Virus record (IMG/VR): IMGVR_UViG_3300020347_000044
Location: 1 to 20,247 of that record
Direction: 5' to 3' (one strand)
Source: a virus
DNA: 20,247 bases
Part shown: one piece after another, positions 1 to 19,713 of the stretch
Layout: each line of letters begins with the position of its first letter
Position numbering within the stretch: position 1 is the stretch's first letter
Program-made: the position numbers and the translations under genes
Notes under the pieces: generated by a model
What the model was told of the DNA's origin: nothing
The model's database searches: none
What the model saw: the letters and a program-made list of their open reading frames with translations, nothing else

Positions 1-226
1 ACCATCGCCACAAGCGATGGCTAATCTACGAAAGCTAAGGACAAAAGAACATCTGAATAAAGAAAAAGAAGAACAAAGCGGGAGCGTTCTAGAAGTTCTC
101 TTTTTCTTTGTTCCACTACTAGCTAAGACAGATGAATACTTGGAATCTGTCGTCTTTTGTCTGTGCTTGAGCCGTATGCTACAAACGACCCACGAGCCCA
201 GTAAACAAGCGGGTTGACAGACCTAA
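1..226. other. Gene-free leader with hairpins, possibly the 5' part of the structured RNA
   Basis: I see no credible gene here; the only open frame (17-217) lacks a ribosome site and has the composition of chance translation. The stretch does hold inverted repeats: a perfect 7-bp stem 2-8/14-20 with a 5-base loop; an A/G-rich arm at 59-74 pairing with a T/C-rich arm at 95-109 with one bulge; an alternative 8-bp pairing 71-78/106-113 that competes with it; and a perfect 7-bp stem 127-133/145-151. Such density suggests transcribed, folded RNA continuous with the stronger structure that follows, and possibly starting left of the window. Strand is inferred as + from the downstream genes, not shown. 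Confidence 0.4.
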
Positions 227-607
227 TCGACCCTTGCTGGTCGACCCTGAGGTCAGATGACGCAGGGAATCGTTGTTAAGTTATTGCTTTGTAATAACTT
301 ATGCATAAGATTCGTGAGTCATTGATCCTCGGATATACTGAGGTGCATAGAGGCGATGGCTCAGTGAGCCTCGTCGCACCGAAGCTAGGGAAAATCGCTC
401 GGGCTTGGCGAGCGAAACTGGGCGAAGCGGGGGCTTCCTACCCCGCGGAGGGCAAAGGGTCATGGTTCTCGGAAGCATGACACTTATCGAGCGTAAATAA
501 AACTGGGAGACTTGTCACATAGCTCCTGCGAAGCAGGGGGGCTATGGGGGAAGTCGCAAAAAAAGGCAAGTGGGGGTAACAACCTGCACATTTATTTTTT
601 GATTTTT
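227..607 (+). ncRNA. Candidate large structured non-coding RNA, family not recognised
   Basis: No gene covers this stretch, which is more GC-rich at 350-570 than the rest of the window. Perfect or near-perfect stems read directly from the sequence are 227-232/239-244, 245-249/263-267, 278-285/293-300 (8 bp), 301-305/344-348 enclosing 327-330/340-343, 358-362/366-370, 395-401/409-415 (7 bp), 427-432/441-446 (GCGGGG/CCCCGC), 459-464/476-481, 518-523/541-546 enclosing 525-529/533-537 with a GAA loop, and 509-513/551-555 closing that last arm. The segment 488-493 repeats the CGAGCG found at 409-414, so 396-401 can pair with either copy. AAACTGGG occurs at 415-422 and 500-507. Size, ornateness and a phage context resemble the GOLLD and ROOL classes of large bacterial/phage RNAs, but I cannot match it to any of them. 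It is not recognisable as tmRNA, RNase P RNA, SRP RNA or a group I/II intron. Confidence 0.5.
570..607 (+). terminator. Possible intrinsic terminator at the 3' end of the structured RNA
   Basis: A modest stem (570-572/587-589 with inner 575-577/582-584 around an AACA loop and an imperfect middle) is followed at once by a T-rich run at 591-607. It would end the candidate RNA near base 600. The stem is weak, so this is tentative; the hairpin at 639-659 is an alternative end. Confidence 0.3.
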
Positions 608-1476: not shown

Positions 1477-1699
1477 TAGCGATTACGATGATCTATTTGA
1501 TAAGACTCGTGGTAACTTAGGTGAGCACTTTAGCAACTATATGTTCATTGTAATGGACGATGATGGTGATCTATACTATGATTATTCCAACCCAAGGGTG
1601 GGTAGGATGTTAATAAATGAAACTGCGATGGATATGTCTAGTACCCCAATTGATATATGCTGGGAAGTAGAGGAAGAGGAAGAGGAGGAAGAAGAGTGA
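1466..1699 (+). CDS. Hypothetical small acidic protein with a poly-Glu tail
   Basis: This 77-residue protein starts at GTG 1466, preceded 5 bases earlier by a strong GAGGAGGA site, and overlaps the upstream gene by 11 bases and the large terminase gene by the four bases GTGA. It is Asp-rich at the N-terminus, with YMFIVMDDDGDLYYDY in the middle, and ends in WEVEEEEEEEEE. The Glu run is encoded by the purine-rich stretch that also serves as ribosome site for the large terminase, so it may be a by-product of that overlap. Lying between the terminase genes it could help packaging, but I recognise no family and assign no function. Confidence 0.7.
   Translation: MAIDSDYDDLFDKTRGNLGEHFSNYMFIVMDDDGDLYYDYSNPRVGRMLINETAMDMSSTPIDICWEVEEEEEEEEE
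1682..1698 (+). promoter_or_regulatory. Ribosome binding site that fixes the large terminase start at GTG 1696
   Basis: AGGAGG at 1683-1688 sits 7 bases before GTG 1696, an ideal spacing, whereas the in-frame ATG at 1657 has no comparable site upstream. Starting at 1657 would add 13 residues rich in Gly and Arg that are simply the purine run read in another frame. GTG 1696 is therefore the better start, and its last bases overlap the stop of the preceding gene, suggesting translational coupling. Confidence 0.75.
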
Positions 1700-3015
1700 A
1701 TGTAACTGTTCCAGCACAAGGGTGGTCTCCTAGACCATATCAACTAGGTCTTGTTAAGTACATGACTCAAAAGAAACGTGGACTACGAGCAGTAGTCGCA
1801 TGGCATCGTCGTGCAGGTAAGGATCTTACTTGCGTGAATGTTATGGCAGTAAAAGCTTTACAGCGGGTGGGTACATATTGGTACGTCCTACCATATGGTA
1901 ATCAGGCACGCCGTATTGTTTGGAACGGCATGACTGGTGAGGGTAAGAAGTTTATTGACTACTTCCCTAAGGAAATAATTGAAAAGAAGAGTGAACAGGA
2001 GATGCGTCTCCACTTAACCAATGGATCTATTATACAACTTATGGGGTCTGATGATCCTGATAAGATGGTGGGTGCTAATCCCATTGGCGTGGTATTCTCT
2101 GAGTTTAGTATCTCCGACCCATCTGCTTGGCAACTTATCAATCCAATTCTAGCAGAGAATGGCGGGTGGGCTTTATTCAATGGTACACCTCGTGGTGAAA
2201 ATCATTTCTACAAATTATTAGAAAAAGCTAAGGTCGTTCCCGACTGGTACTCAAGTCACCTATCCGTTAAAGACACGAAGGCTATCTCTCCAACTGATCT
2301 CCGCAAAGCTAGAGATGAGCTAAACAATGAAGCACGATTCCAGTCGGAATACATGTGCTCATTTAAAACTCCAGTAGAAGGTTCGTACTACGGTCCAATC
2401 ATATCAAGATTGTACAAGAACAATCAGATGCTGCAGGAACTAAACCCTGAAACGTCTTTACCAGTACACACTGCGTGGGACTTAGGTATGGATGACGCAA
2501 CAAGTATTTGGTTCTTCCAGCAACATAAGAGTGAGATCAGGCTGGTAAACTACTACGAGAATAGTGGAGAAGGCTTCCCGCACTACGCACGAGAGTTAAA
2601 TCGCTGGGCTGTGCAGAAAGGAATTACCTTTGGCAAGCACTACGCCCCGCACGATATTAAAGTACGAGAACTCGGCACAGGTAAGAGTAGACTTGAGGTT
2701 GCCAGATCTTTAGGACTTAAGTTCACACCTGTACGCAAGCTGGCTGTGCAGGATGGTATCGAAGGTGTCAGAAATATTTTGCCCCGATGCTGGTTTTCAA
2801 GAATGGCGTGTGCTGTGGGTATAGAGCATCTTAAAGGATATCACAAAGAATGGGACAGCTCTCGTCAGGTTTTTAGGAAGACACCTGTGCACGACAATAA
2901 CTCACATGGAGCTGACGCATTTAGAACCCTAGCAATGGGACTCAAAGAGGAGAGAACTTATGGAAAACACAAAAAACGACCAACAAGCTACGAAGTCACC
3001 AATGTCAATTGGTGA
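1696..3015 (+). CDS. terL: Terminase large subunit (packaging ATPase and nuclease)
   Basis: The 439-residue protein (counted from GTG) is the motor that pumps DNA into the prohead and cuts it. The ATPase half shows a Walker A-type loop WHRRAGKD at about residues 36-43, a Walker B-type strand IGVVFSE with the catalytic Glu at about 136 (Ser in place of the usual Asp before it), and the coupling motif FNGTPRG at 161-167. The nuclease half shows WDLGMDD at about 261-267, supplying the first metal-binding Asp, a candidate Asp in APHD near 320, and HGADAF with the last Asp near 407. All three nuclease regions are intact, so both activities are expected. It is shorter than T7 gp19 (586 aa) and looks like the compact HRRAGKD-type terminases. 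Its last 56 bases overlap the next gene. Confidence 0.96.
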   Translation: MNVTVPAQGWSPRPYQLGLVKYMTQKKRGLRAVVAWHRRAGKDLTCVNVMAVKALQRVGTYWYVLPYGNQARRIVWNGMTGEGKKFIDYFPKEIIEKKSEQEMRLHLTNGSIIQLMGSDDPDKMVGANPIGVVFSEFSISDPSAWQLINPILAENGGWALFNGTPRGENHFYKLLEKAKVVPDWYSSHLSVKDTKAISPTDLRKARDELNNEARFQSEYMCSFKTPVEGSYYGPIISRLYKNNQMLQELNPETSLPVHTAWDLGMDDATSIWFFQQHKSEIRLVNYYENSGEGFPHYARELNRWAVQKGITFGKHYAPHDIKVRELGTGKSRLEVARSLGLKFTPVRKLAVQDGIEGVRNILPRCWFSRMACAVGIEHLKGYHKEWDSSRQVFRKTPVHDNNSHGADAFRTLAMGLKEERTYGKHKKRPTSYEVTNVNW

Positions 3016-14715: not shown

Positions 14716-17700
14716 ATGAGTAATGAATTAAATGAGTTAGAGACTTACTACAATTTTAAAAATGAGTCTAAGACTACTCAACTCCCAGCAGGGATGTCTT
14801 TGTACACTACTGGTGAGCAGGCAGCTACATCATTTTCTCGAGGCGTAGATGATTCCCTGCTTGTAGGTCTACTCCCTGAAGTTATTGGAATGGCTACTGC
14901 CACATCTAATGATAAAAAGAGTGGGCTTAAACCCCTAACTCCAGATGAATTTAAAGATCAAGGCTATGATTACTTTGGAGATGCCTTTGAGTATAAGATT
15001 GGTGAGACACCATCAGCTACTCAGCTTAGATTTAATCGCTTTACTAGACAGCAGACAGATCAAACAGTAACTTCTAATAACACAGGAGTTATGCAACCTT
15101 TGTTAAATTTTGGGTCTGAGTTTGTGGGTGGTATGGCAGGTGATTTACCTATAGCTTTTGTACCATATGCTAATGTAGCTAATGCAACCGCAAAAGCTGC
15201 TAACGCCATGAAAGTTGGTTGGAGAACAGCATCTAGACAAGCGTTGCGAAATCAAACAAAACGACAAGCTGCGTATGTAGATGCATTTGAATCAGGGTCG
15301 AAGTGGAAGATTGGTAAATTTGTAGCTAAAGATTATTTTAAAGAAGCAACAATAGCTGCCTCAATAGAGTCTCCTTTGTGGGGTGCTGCTGCATCATATG
15401 TTGGTGATGATGTAGGATTTGGTGACGTTTTAGTTAACGGAGCATTTTCAGTTGGAGCTTCAGTTCCATTCTCAGGCTTTTCAATTAGAAGTGCATTTAA
15501 AAAACAAGCTGAGTATGTAAAATTTAATAATGATGTAGATCAAGTTAATGAATTTATGGAAAGTGGAGAAGTAGCTCAAGCTGCTTTTAAGCTAGCAGAG
15601 TTCTACGAGCCAGCTCAAAAATTAGCTCAAGAGAACAAGGAGTTTGCATTTATACTTGAAGGTGTCGACGATGTAAACAGTTTAACTCCAGAACAAATAG
15701 ATGCAGCTCGCAGATTTAATTCTGCAATAACTATAGAAGAGCTGAAAAAAGGTGTGGCTAATTTGTTGTTACAAAAAGCAGCTACTGTTGGCGAGAAAGC
15801 ATCTGCCTTGGAAAATGCAGATGAGATTAAAAATACGACCGAGCGTATATATACAGCTATGGATCGTAATGAAATGCACCTACTAAGCGACGATGATTAT
15901 GAGTTATTACTAGAGTCAGGCTGGACACCGTCTGATGGGCACACTAGGGCTCGATTAGCCTACTCTAATCTTAGAGATCAATTTAGAGGTGCAACATACG
16001 AACCTTCGGATGGAGACTTTCAGTCGGGACGAGGTGATTACCTTCTAACCGATAATGCTAGAGCAGCGGCTCAGCGTTCTATAAGTGAATACGACGGACC
16101 GCAAATGTTTGTAGTTGAAGACACTACTATAGATACAATAGCACTTGTTAATCCTAAAACTGGTAAGGTGACAATAAATCCAGCAAAGCTCCAAGAAGAT
16201 TGGGATGCTGGTATGCCTTATCTATTAGGTTTAAGTGAGGGGGATGGTTCTGCTCAAAAGAAACTTGTATTTGCAGATATTGACTTAGACAAGTTTAGAG
16301 AAGCCTTAGGCTCTGTTGAACGATATAGGGAGTTTATTCTTTACCACGAAGCAGGACACGTTGCATTGAAACATAAAGGAACAAAGCGTTCTGAGTGGAT
16401 GAGTCAAGAAGCTCTTAATAACGAAAAAGCAGCTAATGAGTTTGCAGCCATGTCTATGGGAATTGATTGGCGTACAATGCGTAAGACATTGGACATTCCT
16501 GTTCAGGGCGAGCTTAACTTGGACACACCTACAACGGTAACTTATAAAGCTGGGGTTCGGGCTGTTAATGCAGCTGTAGCAGCTGGCGAAGGTGTTAGTG
16601 TGCTTAGAAAAGCGGGTGAAGAACACTATGGTAATCCGTTTAGTCATTTGGCTAATGCTCGGGATGCTGTTAAAACATCTAACCTGCAAGAAACAGTTGA
16701 TGCATATCGTGCTTGGCTAGAAGGGACTGACCACACTGATGTTAAGCAAGAACGCAGACAATGGGTTTTAGATCAGATAGACTCTGGTGCTTTAGATGGC
16801 AAAGTTTTACTTTATTACAGCAAGCAACAACCTAACCACGCAGAGGTGTTAGCAGAGTTTATTTCGGAGCGTCGTGCTTCTGCAGATGCAGACCCGCTTC
16901 CCGATACATTTAATCCTCAGCTGACTCAAGAAGCTTTTGACGAACTTAAGATTAAACTAGGTGAAACTATTTTAAATCCTCAAACTAAGCAGTCTAATTC
17001 AAGCACTCCTAAGCTTTCGGAAGAAGCAACTACTCAACTTGAACGAAACACTTTAGACTTTAACAGCCTACAGAATAATCGTTTGAAGTTCTTTGATGAC
17101 AACATCAGAACACTACTTGGTAATCCCGAAGCTCTTGACGCAATACTCAGTACACCAGAGGGCTACAACGCAGTAGCTGACTCCCAACGAGTGGCTCGTA
17201 AGGCTCACGTAAAGGAGAAGCTGGAAGAACTTGGACTAGAGGATTATGAGTTCATTGCTAATCAAATTATTGATATTCAAGGCAATACCGATTTCCGACT
17301 AGCAGCAGTTAATAAATTCTTTGATCGCTACAGCATATACGAAACAGACACTCAGATATTTGACTATAAAGGCATACCAGATGACCTCAAAACTAGCGTT
17401 TATATAATCTTAGGGGAGAACCCCGATAACCTATTAAAAGCCCGTGCAGAGGTAATTCAGTCCATTAATGAAGCAAATTCTGCTGGTATCTTATCACTTG
17501 TTCACAATGAAGCTACATACAAGAGATATAGGCAGGGCATCGACCAGTTTGATACTGTTAAGCAGAAGGTTGAGTGGATTCAAACTCAGCTCGATGGTCA
17601 GCAACGCTCAGGGTTTAACCCGCAAGCATCTGCTCAAGTTAAATCTCGAGCACAGGTTATTCTAGACTCTAAGCCTATTAATGATGTTCTTGAGAAACAC

Positions 17701-19713
17701 GGGCTGTGGGATGTATTTATTGGTGCAGGGCATGGACCATATTTGGAAGTGCTCCGCAGGCAGACAGGTGGTAACCCCGATGCAGTTAGAATATATGGTG
17801 AAAATTTACGTGAAAATATTAATGAATTCGCTGCTGATCTTATGTCTGCGATTCGCACTGGTACTACTCCAGATAAGTGGAAAGGCGTTGAAGCTTTTGA
17901 AGAACTTGTAAGTGTAATCAATCAAGTTCGTAATTCTCAAATAGCAGCTCTTAATCGCATGGGATCTAATGTCCGCGTTCGGTCAGACTTTTCTGGCTGG
18001 AGTCAGCGTTGGTCTGATGATGCAATCAAACGAGTTGGTATTGAAGCTTGGAAGAAAGATATGCGTACTTCCGTAGATTGGGAAGCTACAGAGAAAGCTC
18101 ACGGAGGTTTATTACTTCGTAGGGACGGTAAGCAAGTTAAGTTTACTCGTGAGCAATATCTAGATGAATGGTATCATCAGATTGTAGAGCAGAAGCAGAA
18201 GACTGATGGAGCTGATATAGCCAAGTCATTTGAACAGTCTCGTACTTTAATTCTTAAAGCAGATTCAGAAGCTGCAATGCTCGCTAAGTATAGCGGTGAA
18301 GCTAATTTAGGTAAGCTCCTAATGGACCAGATACGTTACCGTTCTGAGATGATATCTAATTTAAACTTTCTTGGGAATGATCCAGCAAAACTTATGCAAG
18401 ATTTGTTGAATGATGCGGGAGCAATACGAGGAGATAACATTGGTCGTCTTAAATACGACACAGTTCTCGGAACAACAAAGTTACTTACTAATGATTTGGA
18501 CAACCCTGTTGATGCTACATTTGCAACTATAATGAAAAAAGTTCGTGCAGTAGGTAACTTGGCATTCTTACCATTATCAGGTTTTTCTGCTTTGATGGAT
18601 ATACCTCTTGTATCCGCTACTTTAAAGTACACGGGGGCTGGCGATGCAACAATTGCAGAGCTTATGCCACTGTATCAAGCTGCGTTGAAACGTCAGTTTA
18701 AAGGTGATCCCGAAGGTTTATCTAAATATCTTAAAGATGCAGGAGCTGGCTTTGACTTAATGAATAATGCAAACCTTAGAGGTATTACTGGGGACACTTC
18801 AGGATCTCAAGGTTTCTTATCACTAGCAATGTCATTCATGTTTGAAGCTAATGGTATGACTAGGTTTACTGCGGCACACCAAGAACTTTTTGTAGATTGG
18901 ACAGCCAGAAACTTAGCTGAAGAAGCTAACGCAGGTGCATTTAGTGCAATCCGAATAGAAAGCTTAAAAAACTTTGGATTTACTGACGCTGAGATAGATG
19001 TGTTACTTAAGTCCGTATCTGATGAAGCTCCTGACGGAATAGCACGCATTATGCCTCAAACTATTGAGAATGTTGAAGCGTCTAACAAGCTTCGTGAATA
19101 CATGATTCACTATATCAAGCAGTCAGCATTTGAACCAGATGTTGGTGCTCAAGCAATCTCTCGTGGCAATTTAAAGTCTGGCACAATTGGAGGCGAGTCC
19201 ATGCGTACAGGATTTCAATATTTACCATCAATTCTAGGGCTTAGCCGAGTTATATTTAACAGATGGTCTCAGGGCTACAAAGGAGACCAGCTAAACCAAG
19301 TACGAGCAATGTCGCACCTAGTAGCATTTATTGGAACTTCACTAGCAGCAGCTTGGATGGTGTTGACACTTAAAGATATATCTAAGGGTCGATTACCAAT
19401 GAACCCGCTAGAATTGTCATCATTTGACATGAAACGCATTATTAACCAATCGGGACTACTTGGAGTAGGTGAGCTTGGTTTTGGAGTACTAGAAGGTCAG
19501 TTGCCTCTTGGTCCTTTAGCTAGTACACCATTTAACCTAGCAGGGGGAGTATTCTCAGGAGATCCTGAGAAAGTCGGAAGATCGCTCGCACCCTATGCGG
19601 GTGGTAATATGCCAGTAGTTGGTCCAGCTATTCGGGGTATGATCGGACTTGCTTTTACACAATCTATTACTGACTTCATGTCAGCTGAAAATGACTACAT
19701 CCAAAGATACTAG
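14716..19713 (+). CDS. Very large internal virion (ejection) protein with a metallopeptidase-like motif, gp16-like
   Basis: At 1665 residues it occupies the place of T7 gp16 (1318 aa). Near residue 540 it reads YHEAGHVALKH, a canonical HExxH zinc motif (H544, E545, H548), followed by EKAANEFAA at 570-578. HExGH plus a downstream E..AN.FA block is the arrangement seen in ImmA/IrrE-type metallopeptidases, so a zinc protease domain is probable, with E570 or E575 as candidate third ligand. I see no lytic transglycosylase signature like that of T7 gp16. The C-terminal part has hydrophobic segments near residues 1276-1300 and 1534-1552 and a Gly/Leu-rich end near 1583-1602, suitable for membrane insertion after ejection. 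The rest is helical and charged. It likely enters the host with the DNA. Role by context; protease by motif. Confidence 0.85.
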   Translation: MSNELNELETYYNFKNESKTTQLPAGMSLYTTGEQAATSFSRGVDDSLLVGLLPEVIGMATATSNDKKSGLKPLTPDEFKDQGYDYFGDAFEYKIGETPSATQLRFNRFTRQQTDQTVTSNNTGVMQPLLNFGSEFVGGMAGDLPIAFVPYANVANATAKAANAMKVGWRTASRQALRNQTKRQAAYVDAFESGSKWKIGKFVAKDYFKEATIAASIESPLWGAAASYVGDDVGFGDVLVNGAFSVGASVPFSGFSIRSAFKKQAEYVKFNNDVDQVNEFMESGEVAQAAFKLAEFYEPAQKLAQENKEFAFILEGVDDVNSLTPEQIDAARRFNSAITIEELKKGVANLLLQKAATVGEKASALENADEIKNTTERIYTAMDRNEMHLLSDDDYELLLESGWTPSDGHTRARLAYSNLRDQFRGATYEPSDGDFQSGRGDYLLTDNARAAAQRSISEYDGPQMFVVEDTTIDTIALVNPKTGKVTINPAKLQEDWDAGMPYLLGLSEGDGSAQKKLVFADIDLDKFREALGSVERYREFILYHEAGHVALKHKGTKRSEWMSQEALNNEKAANEFAAMSMGIDWRTMRKTLDIPVQGELNLDTPTTVTYKAGVRAVNAAVAAGEGVSVLRKAGEEHYGNPFSHLANARDAVKTSNLQETVDAYRAWLEGTDHTDVKQERRQWVLDQIDSGALDGKVLLYYSKQQPNHAEVLAEFISERRASADADPLPDTFNPQLTQEAFDELKIKLGETILNPQTKQSNSSTPKLSEEATTQLERNTLDFNSLQNNRLKFFDDNIRTLLGNPEALDAILSTPEGYNAVADSQRVARKAHVKEKLEELGLEDYEFIANQIIDIQGNTDFRLAAVNKFFDRYSIYETDTQIFDYKGIPDDLKTSVYIILGENPDNLLKARAEVIQSINEANSAGILSLVHNEATYKRYRQGIDQFDTVKQKVEWIQTQLDGQQRSGFNPQASAQVKSRAQVILDSKPINDVLEKHGLWDVFIGAGHGPYLEVLRRQTGGNPDAVRIYGENLRENINEFAADLMSAIRTGTTPDKWKGVEAFEELVSVINQVRNSQIAALNRMGSNVRVRSDFSGWSQRWSDDAIKRVGIEAWKKDMRTSVDWEATEKAHGGLLLRRDGKQVKFTREQYLDEWYHQIVEQKQKTDGADIAKSFEQSRTLILKADSEAAMLAKYSGEANLGKLLMDQIRYRSEMISNLNFLGNDPAKLMQDLLNDAGAIRGDNIGRLKYDTVLGTTKLLTNDLDNPVDATFATIMKKVRAVGNLAFLPLSGFSALMDIPLVSATLKYTGAGDATIAELMPLYQAALKRQFKGDPEGLSKYLKDAGAGFDLMNNANLRGITGDTSGSQGFLSLAMSFMFEANGMTRFTAAHQELFVDWTARNLAEEANAGAFSAIRIESLKNFGFTDAEIDVLLKSVSDEAPDGIARIMPQTIENVEASNKLREYMIHYIKQSAFEPDVGAQAISRGNLKSGTIGGESMRTGFQYLPSILGLSRVIFNRWSQGYKGDQLNQVRAMSHLVAFIGTSLAAAWMVLTLKDISKGRLPMNPLELSSFDMKRIINQSGLLGVGELGFGVLEGQLPLGPLASTPFNLAGGVFSGDPEKVGRSLAPYAGGNMPVVGPAIRGMIGLAFTQSITDFMSAENDYIQRY

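Follow-up and report, generated by a model that had tools for sequence, protein, structure and literature searches.

Genomic Location of the Gene-Free Region

The window, meaning the whole 20,247-nt stretch of DNA that we analyzed, is a complete virus contig. Its first 607 nt carry no genes, and G+C content is 53% in 151–600 versus 31% just downstream and ~42–46% in genes. To the right lie an AT-rich control region (615–780), a putative late promoter (788–810, + strand), a candidate gene for the small terminase subunit (TerS; 931–1476, + strand), proposed from its position and a weak profile match only, and the gene for the large terminase subunit (TerL; 1696–3015, + strand; PHROG 2, E = 7.5e-28). 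Only short ORFs, of 66 and 59 aa, were found in the gene-free region, and ARAGORN detected no tRNA or tmRNA in the window. A very long virion protein of 1,665 aa is encoded at 14716–19713, downstream of the tail genes; a long virion protein in the relative G003 (L115/L116) has 2,328 aa.

Using the large terminase protein, we gathered 80 viral loci; the motif survey described below covered 66 non-redundant upstream regions. The carriers are a clade of uncultured, mostly marine phages of podovirus type with genomes of ~40 kb. The loci L002/L114, L003 and L113 have the same RNA as the window at ~94–97% identity. In more distant members, early genes run leftward, and a GC-rich gap of ~1–1.3 kb is followed by TerS, TerL and portal genes running rightward. 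The RNA site is the junction of these divergent early and late operons, with the RNA on the late (+) strand. DNA identity within the gap drops fast with distance, and two motifs described below, M1 and M2, persist.

One contig labelled as belonging to a Sneathiella MAG (L124) has an 82% identical TerL, the RNA motifs and the same kind of palindrome as other relatives. This weakly suggests an alphaproteobacterial host; the contig may also be a misbinned phage. The early module of L118 (17627–19776) encodes a ThiF/E1-like protein (Pfam, E = 5e-15) beside a small ubiquitin-like-looking protein that has no Pfam hit, and the pair is a possible phage ubiquitin-like conjugation set.

Folding and Extent of the Region

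The original prediction described positions 1–607 as gene-free and dense in hairpins, with a GC-rich core, and the analysis bore this out. Positions 1–610 of the + strand had a predicted energy of −224.5 kcal/mol, compared with −181.9 ± 7.0 for dinucleotide shuffles (z = −6.1), and none of 20 shuffles was as low. The − strand of the same interval gave z = −4.95 against its shuffles.

The region is real, but the extent first given to it had to be revised at both ends. Because the contig and the window coincide, the feature is cut off at position 1. In L003, L113 and L114, it runs ~560 nt further left than the window start, and in L003 and L113 ~1,160 nt separate a minus-strand early gene from the terminase genes, so only the 3′ half of the RNA would be inside the window. 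On the right, we place the edge near 600–614, where the conserved motif M2 ends. We annotate this 3′ half as a structured RNA at 1–614 on the + strand, based on the fold and on alignment to L003, L113 and L114.

Several individual elements can be followed through the window clade, which comprises only four near-identical sequences. A long AU-rich hairpin, GAATAAAGAAAAAGAAGAAC / GTTCTCTTTTTCTTTGTTC, occupies 55–113 in both the MFE and centroid folds, and variants at 59 and 110 stay paired. The two long-range pairs proposed originally are exact complements: ATGCA (301–305) with TGCAT (344–348), which is invariant across the clade, and GACTT (509–513) with AAGTC (551–555), which in the fold closes a CATAGCTCCTGC..GCAGGGGGGCTATG hairpin whose variants at 523/541 and 524/540 stay paired. 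At 395–415, the outer pair of the hairpin TCGCTCG..CGAGCGA changes between U-A and A-U from the window to its relatives. All of these elements are on the + strand. Across the clade, we counted this one swap, about 10 G-U-preserving changes and a few disruptions. Relatives also differ in this region by single-base and whole-hairpin indels, with hairpins of ~50 and 88 nt gained or lost between near-identical sequences.

Covariation and Strand Preference

In the sister clade (TerL ~84–87% identical), 14 of 68 predicted pairs had changed on both sides with compensation, a number that none of 500 shuffles reached. Cells were paired in 96.6% of cases there, falling to 25–43% once the partners were slid. 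In clades A, B and C, the alignment folds were far more stable than column shuffles (z = −29, −42 and −20, respectively; these shuffles do not keep dinucleotides). Covarying pairs numbered 135, 65 and 46 in the same three clades, versus shuffled means of 55, 14 and 25, in counts that ignore phylogeny. In clade D, the alignment fold had z = −4, covariation was no better than shuffled and single-sequence folds were near shuffle level. A lack of compensatory changes in related phages had been named at the outset as evidence that would speak against an RNA; such changes are present in the sister clade, in excess in clades A–C and, as the U-A/A-U swap, in the window itself.

The + strand folded better than the − strand in every clade. 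Strand preference was also apparent in the palindromes that most relatives carry (see below), where energy-free alignments of the arms gave 584 G-U versus 182 A-C mismatches, and in 27 of the 31 loci, which are not mutually independent, G-U was the more frequent. This excess of G-U over A-C points to selection on a + strand RNA. Gene conversion between the arms could also maintain their likeness, but alone it would not yield the G-U asymmetry. Judged from these comparisons, the locus encodes a structured RNA with a functional + strand and a universal 3′ motif, M2.

Conserved Motifs M1 and M2

M2 lies at 534–614 on the + strand of the window and consists of a G-tract, GGGGGAA, ~23 nt, GTAACAACCTGC and a T-rich run. 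Across clades, the ~23-nt spacer is followed by either GTCCCTACCTGC or GTAACAACCTGC. A profile whose training set left out both the window clade and the sister clade had this as its single match in the window (nhmmer, E = 7.8e-10). M2 was present in all 66 non-redundant upstream regions, once in each, always on the + strand and 267–385 nt upstream of TerS. None of 26 more distant loci (distant relatives and outgroups) matched the profile, and when 2.9 million viral contigs were scanned for the M2 pattern, every match lay upstream of this TerS. We define the new family by an M2 motif that precedes TerS on the late strand, and the window belongs to it. Of the two tracts, the second (GGGGGAA) is universal; the first may be G or C and is C5 in several clades.

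M1, which is CGTGGGATCCGTAGGTGCATGGA in other clades, has a possible counterpart in the window, GAGGTGCATAG at 340–350 on the + strand, matched by eye only. The M1 profile found the sister clade and did not reach the window.

A Giant Palindrome in the 5′ Domain

The 5′ domain differs between clades, consisting of many small hairpins in the window clade versus a rod of several hundred bp in most others. The 5′ part of 31 loci forms an imperfect palindrome, ~610–860 nt long, that matches its reverse complement at 67–82% identity. The RNA of the window and sister clades lacks this palindrome. We considered whether the palindromes were an assembly artefact and ruled this out: across many separate contigs, as well as the MAG contig, the arms are 67–82% complementary rather than identical. 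In most palindromic loci, the left arm overlaps a conserved minus-strand gene of ~75–90 aa. A TAGTATATATT-like box is often found shortly to the left of the palindrome and could serve as promoter of either the RNA or the adjacent minus-strand gene. In L067, tandem repeats of AAGTATATCTATAGGTCTGTTG lie directly left of the palindrome (approximately −1570 to −1450 from TerS).

The Downstream Control Region

Sequence comparison delimited an AT-rich control region at 615–780 with repeated GTACACTT-type octamers, and within it a near-invariant core, ATCAACGACTTACGTAATT, at 681–699. The octamers are clade-specific (TCACACTT, GACAGACACTT or GTACACTT) and are spaced ~10–11 nt around the core; they could be operators or origin iterons. 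The putative late promoter at 788–810 combines a AAGTCCTT box with CATATACT, which is ATAAGTCCTTnATAnTCATATAAT in other clades. This promoter-like element is found in most loci between M2 and TerS, 23–116 nt before the aligned TerS start. Promoter and terminator scans scored only modestly over shuffle expectation. The early module of L073 encodes a small protein with a sigma-70 region 4 domain (907–1152, − strand; Pfam, E = 1.6e-16), which may recognize the late promoter box. A decamer, CAACGACTTA, occurs in both the RNA and the downstream core, but only in clades A and B, and this may be chance.

Comparison with Known RNAs

No Rfam 15 family, including GOLLD, ROOL and the group I and II introns, matched the window or 19 relatives at the gathering threshold. 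The best sub-threshold hits of the window (Ref84, DGCR5 and MEG8) were taken as chance. There was no hit at the DNA level in 50,697 phage records, cultured phages gave no real match, and no GTDB genome matched the M2 pattern; the MAG contig L124 was reached via its terminase instead. The corresponding intergenic position in Pelagibacter phage Skadi-4 folded no better than shuffles (z = −0.02). We found no report of this phage RNA in the open-access papers searched.

The region had been predicted to be an unassigned large phage RNA, either of a class such as GOLLD or ROOL or of a new one, that would be abundant or virion-linked. The structure, its covariation and the lack of a known Rfam family strongly support an unassigned large RNA; the RNA reaches beyond the window, and most relatives carry a giant hairpin. 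GOLLD forms a homo-oligomeric cage. Like the present RNA, it is phage-encoded, large and ornate, and the accessible text of one report describes a conserved 3′ region and a variable 5′ region (PMC12286853), a layout that the two share without this implying homology. Unlike the present RNA, GOLLD is often near tRNA genes; here there is no tRNA in the window, the site is upstream of TerS and Rfam gives no match. ROOL is similar in being phage-associated, ~600 nt long, complex in fold and obscure in role, but the present RNA has no Rfam match to it and no tRNA island, and most relatives carry a giant rod that the accessible parts of the published accounts do not describe for ROOL. The same parts describe no rod of several hundred bp lying over a gene for RNAs of this kind. 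The packaging RNA (pRNA) of phage phi29 is likewise a noncoding phage RNA tied to packaging. However, at under 200 nt it is far smaller, and the present phage has ordinary TerS/TerL-type genes and no Rfam match. In our reading, the RNA represents a new family among the large ornate phage RNAs; it appears to be GOLLD/ROOL-like in kind, lies in neither family and has no detectable homology to them.

Possible Roles of the RNA

The explanation that we favor, and consider probable, is a noncoding RNA gene of ~1.1–1.2 kb on the late (+) strand, probably made as a separate transcript. The window would hold the 3′ half of this gene, which would be read from the early/late junction. A separate transcript is suggested because the conserved late-promoter-like element sits downstream of the RNA 3′ end; we infer both the 5′ and 3′ ends from sequence. 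During infection, the product may work in trans, as a stably folded RNA that either multimerizes by itself or serves as a scaffold for proteins. That it works in this manner, which has been proposed for GOLLD and ROOL, is a more tentative suggestion, with a little under an even chance of being right.

The main rival is a replication pre-primer. RNA II of plasmid ColE1 is a long structured RNA with a G-tract that is read toward AT-rich DNA, and its RNA-DNA hybrid is cut to prime synthesis. By analogy, the phage RNA would be transcribed toward the AT-rich repeats, its G-tracts would hold an RNA-DNA hybrid there and cleavage would prime the leading strand. We rank this as the strongest rival because of the G-tract, the AT-rich downstream repeats, the PolA-type DNA polymerase that these phages encode and a GC skew of a single sign over both modules, the RNA-sense strand being G-rich even along the oppositely directed early genes. 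The universal GGGGGAA is at the RNA 3′ end and is followed by T/A-rich DNA with the octamer repeats and near-invariant core; most clades lack a clear terminator, and the RNA is located at the early/late divide. However, the first tract is C5, not G, in several clades, the cumulative skew has no inflection in two contigs and the repeats can equally be read as operators. RNA II also belongs to a plasmid and not to a phage. Overall, we consider a pre-primer unlikely. A bolder version, which we regard as less likely again, would make this a new giant phage RNA class in which one stretch of DNA encodes a protein on one strand and an arm of a several-hundred-bp RNA hairpin on the other, with the G-tract 3′ end priming or controlling replication at the early/late divide.

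The RNA could instead act in cis, as a very long, structured leader at the 5′ end of the late mRNA that would control transcription of the late genes or the stability of the message. Its strand, its near-fixed position 267–385 nt before the first late gene and the absence of a conserved terminator are all consistent with this. We nevertheless find a leader distinctly unlikely, since a conserved late-promoter-like element intervenes between the RNA and TerS and the bulk of the conserved structure lies well away from the genes.

The small early gene that lies wholly within the left palindrome arm raises the prospect of an antisense device, in which the rod would be a sense/antisense pair governing that gene. 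The minus-strand ORF is conserved in most palindromic loci, and its differences in clade B are mostly at third codon positions. However, the RNA of the window and sister clades has neither the palindrome nor a gene overlap, and antisense control needs no sense copy in the same + transcript, which makes the device improbable. Least probable is a DNA-level structure, such as a packaging site or an origin palindrome: the region adjoins the terminase genes, giant palindromes are present in most relatives and many contigs end within it, but a 3:1 G-U/A-C asymmetry and strand-specific folding are unexpected for duplex DNA, and the window clade has ornate hairpins with pair-preserving changes and no palindrome.

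Significance

To our knowledge, large ornate RNAs without a known role are few. The RNA described here adds a family that all sampled phages of one clade carry at an almost constant position in the genome, and several clades within it have diverged enough to allow covariation modeling. It is itself unusual for a conserved gene to overlap an RNA arm. The occurrence of an ornate 5′ domain or a giant rod in close relatives is a natural experiment on the job of the 5′ part, and because the RNA lies between early and late operons, next to repeats and a sequence resembling a promoter, particular roles can be tested.
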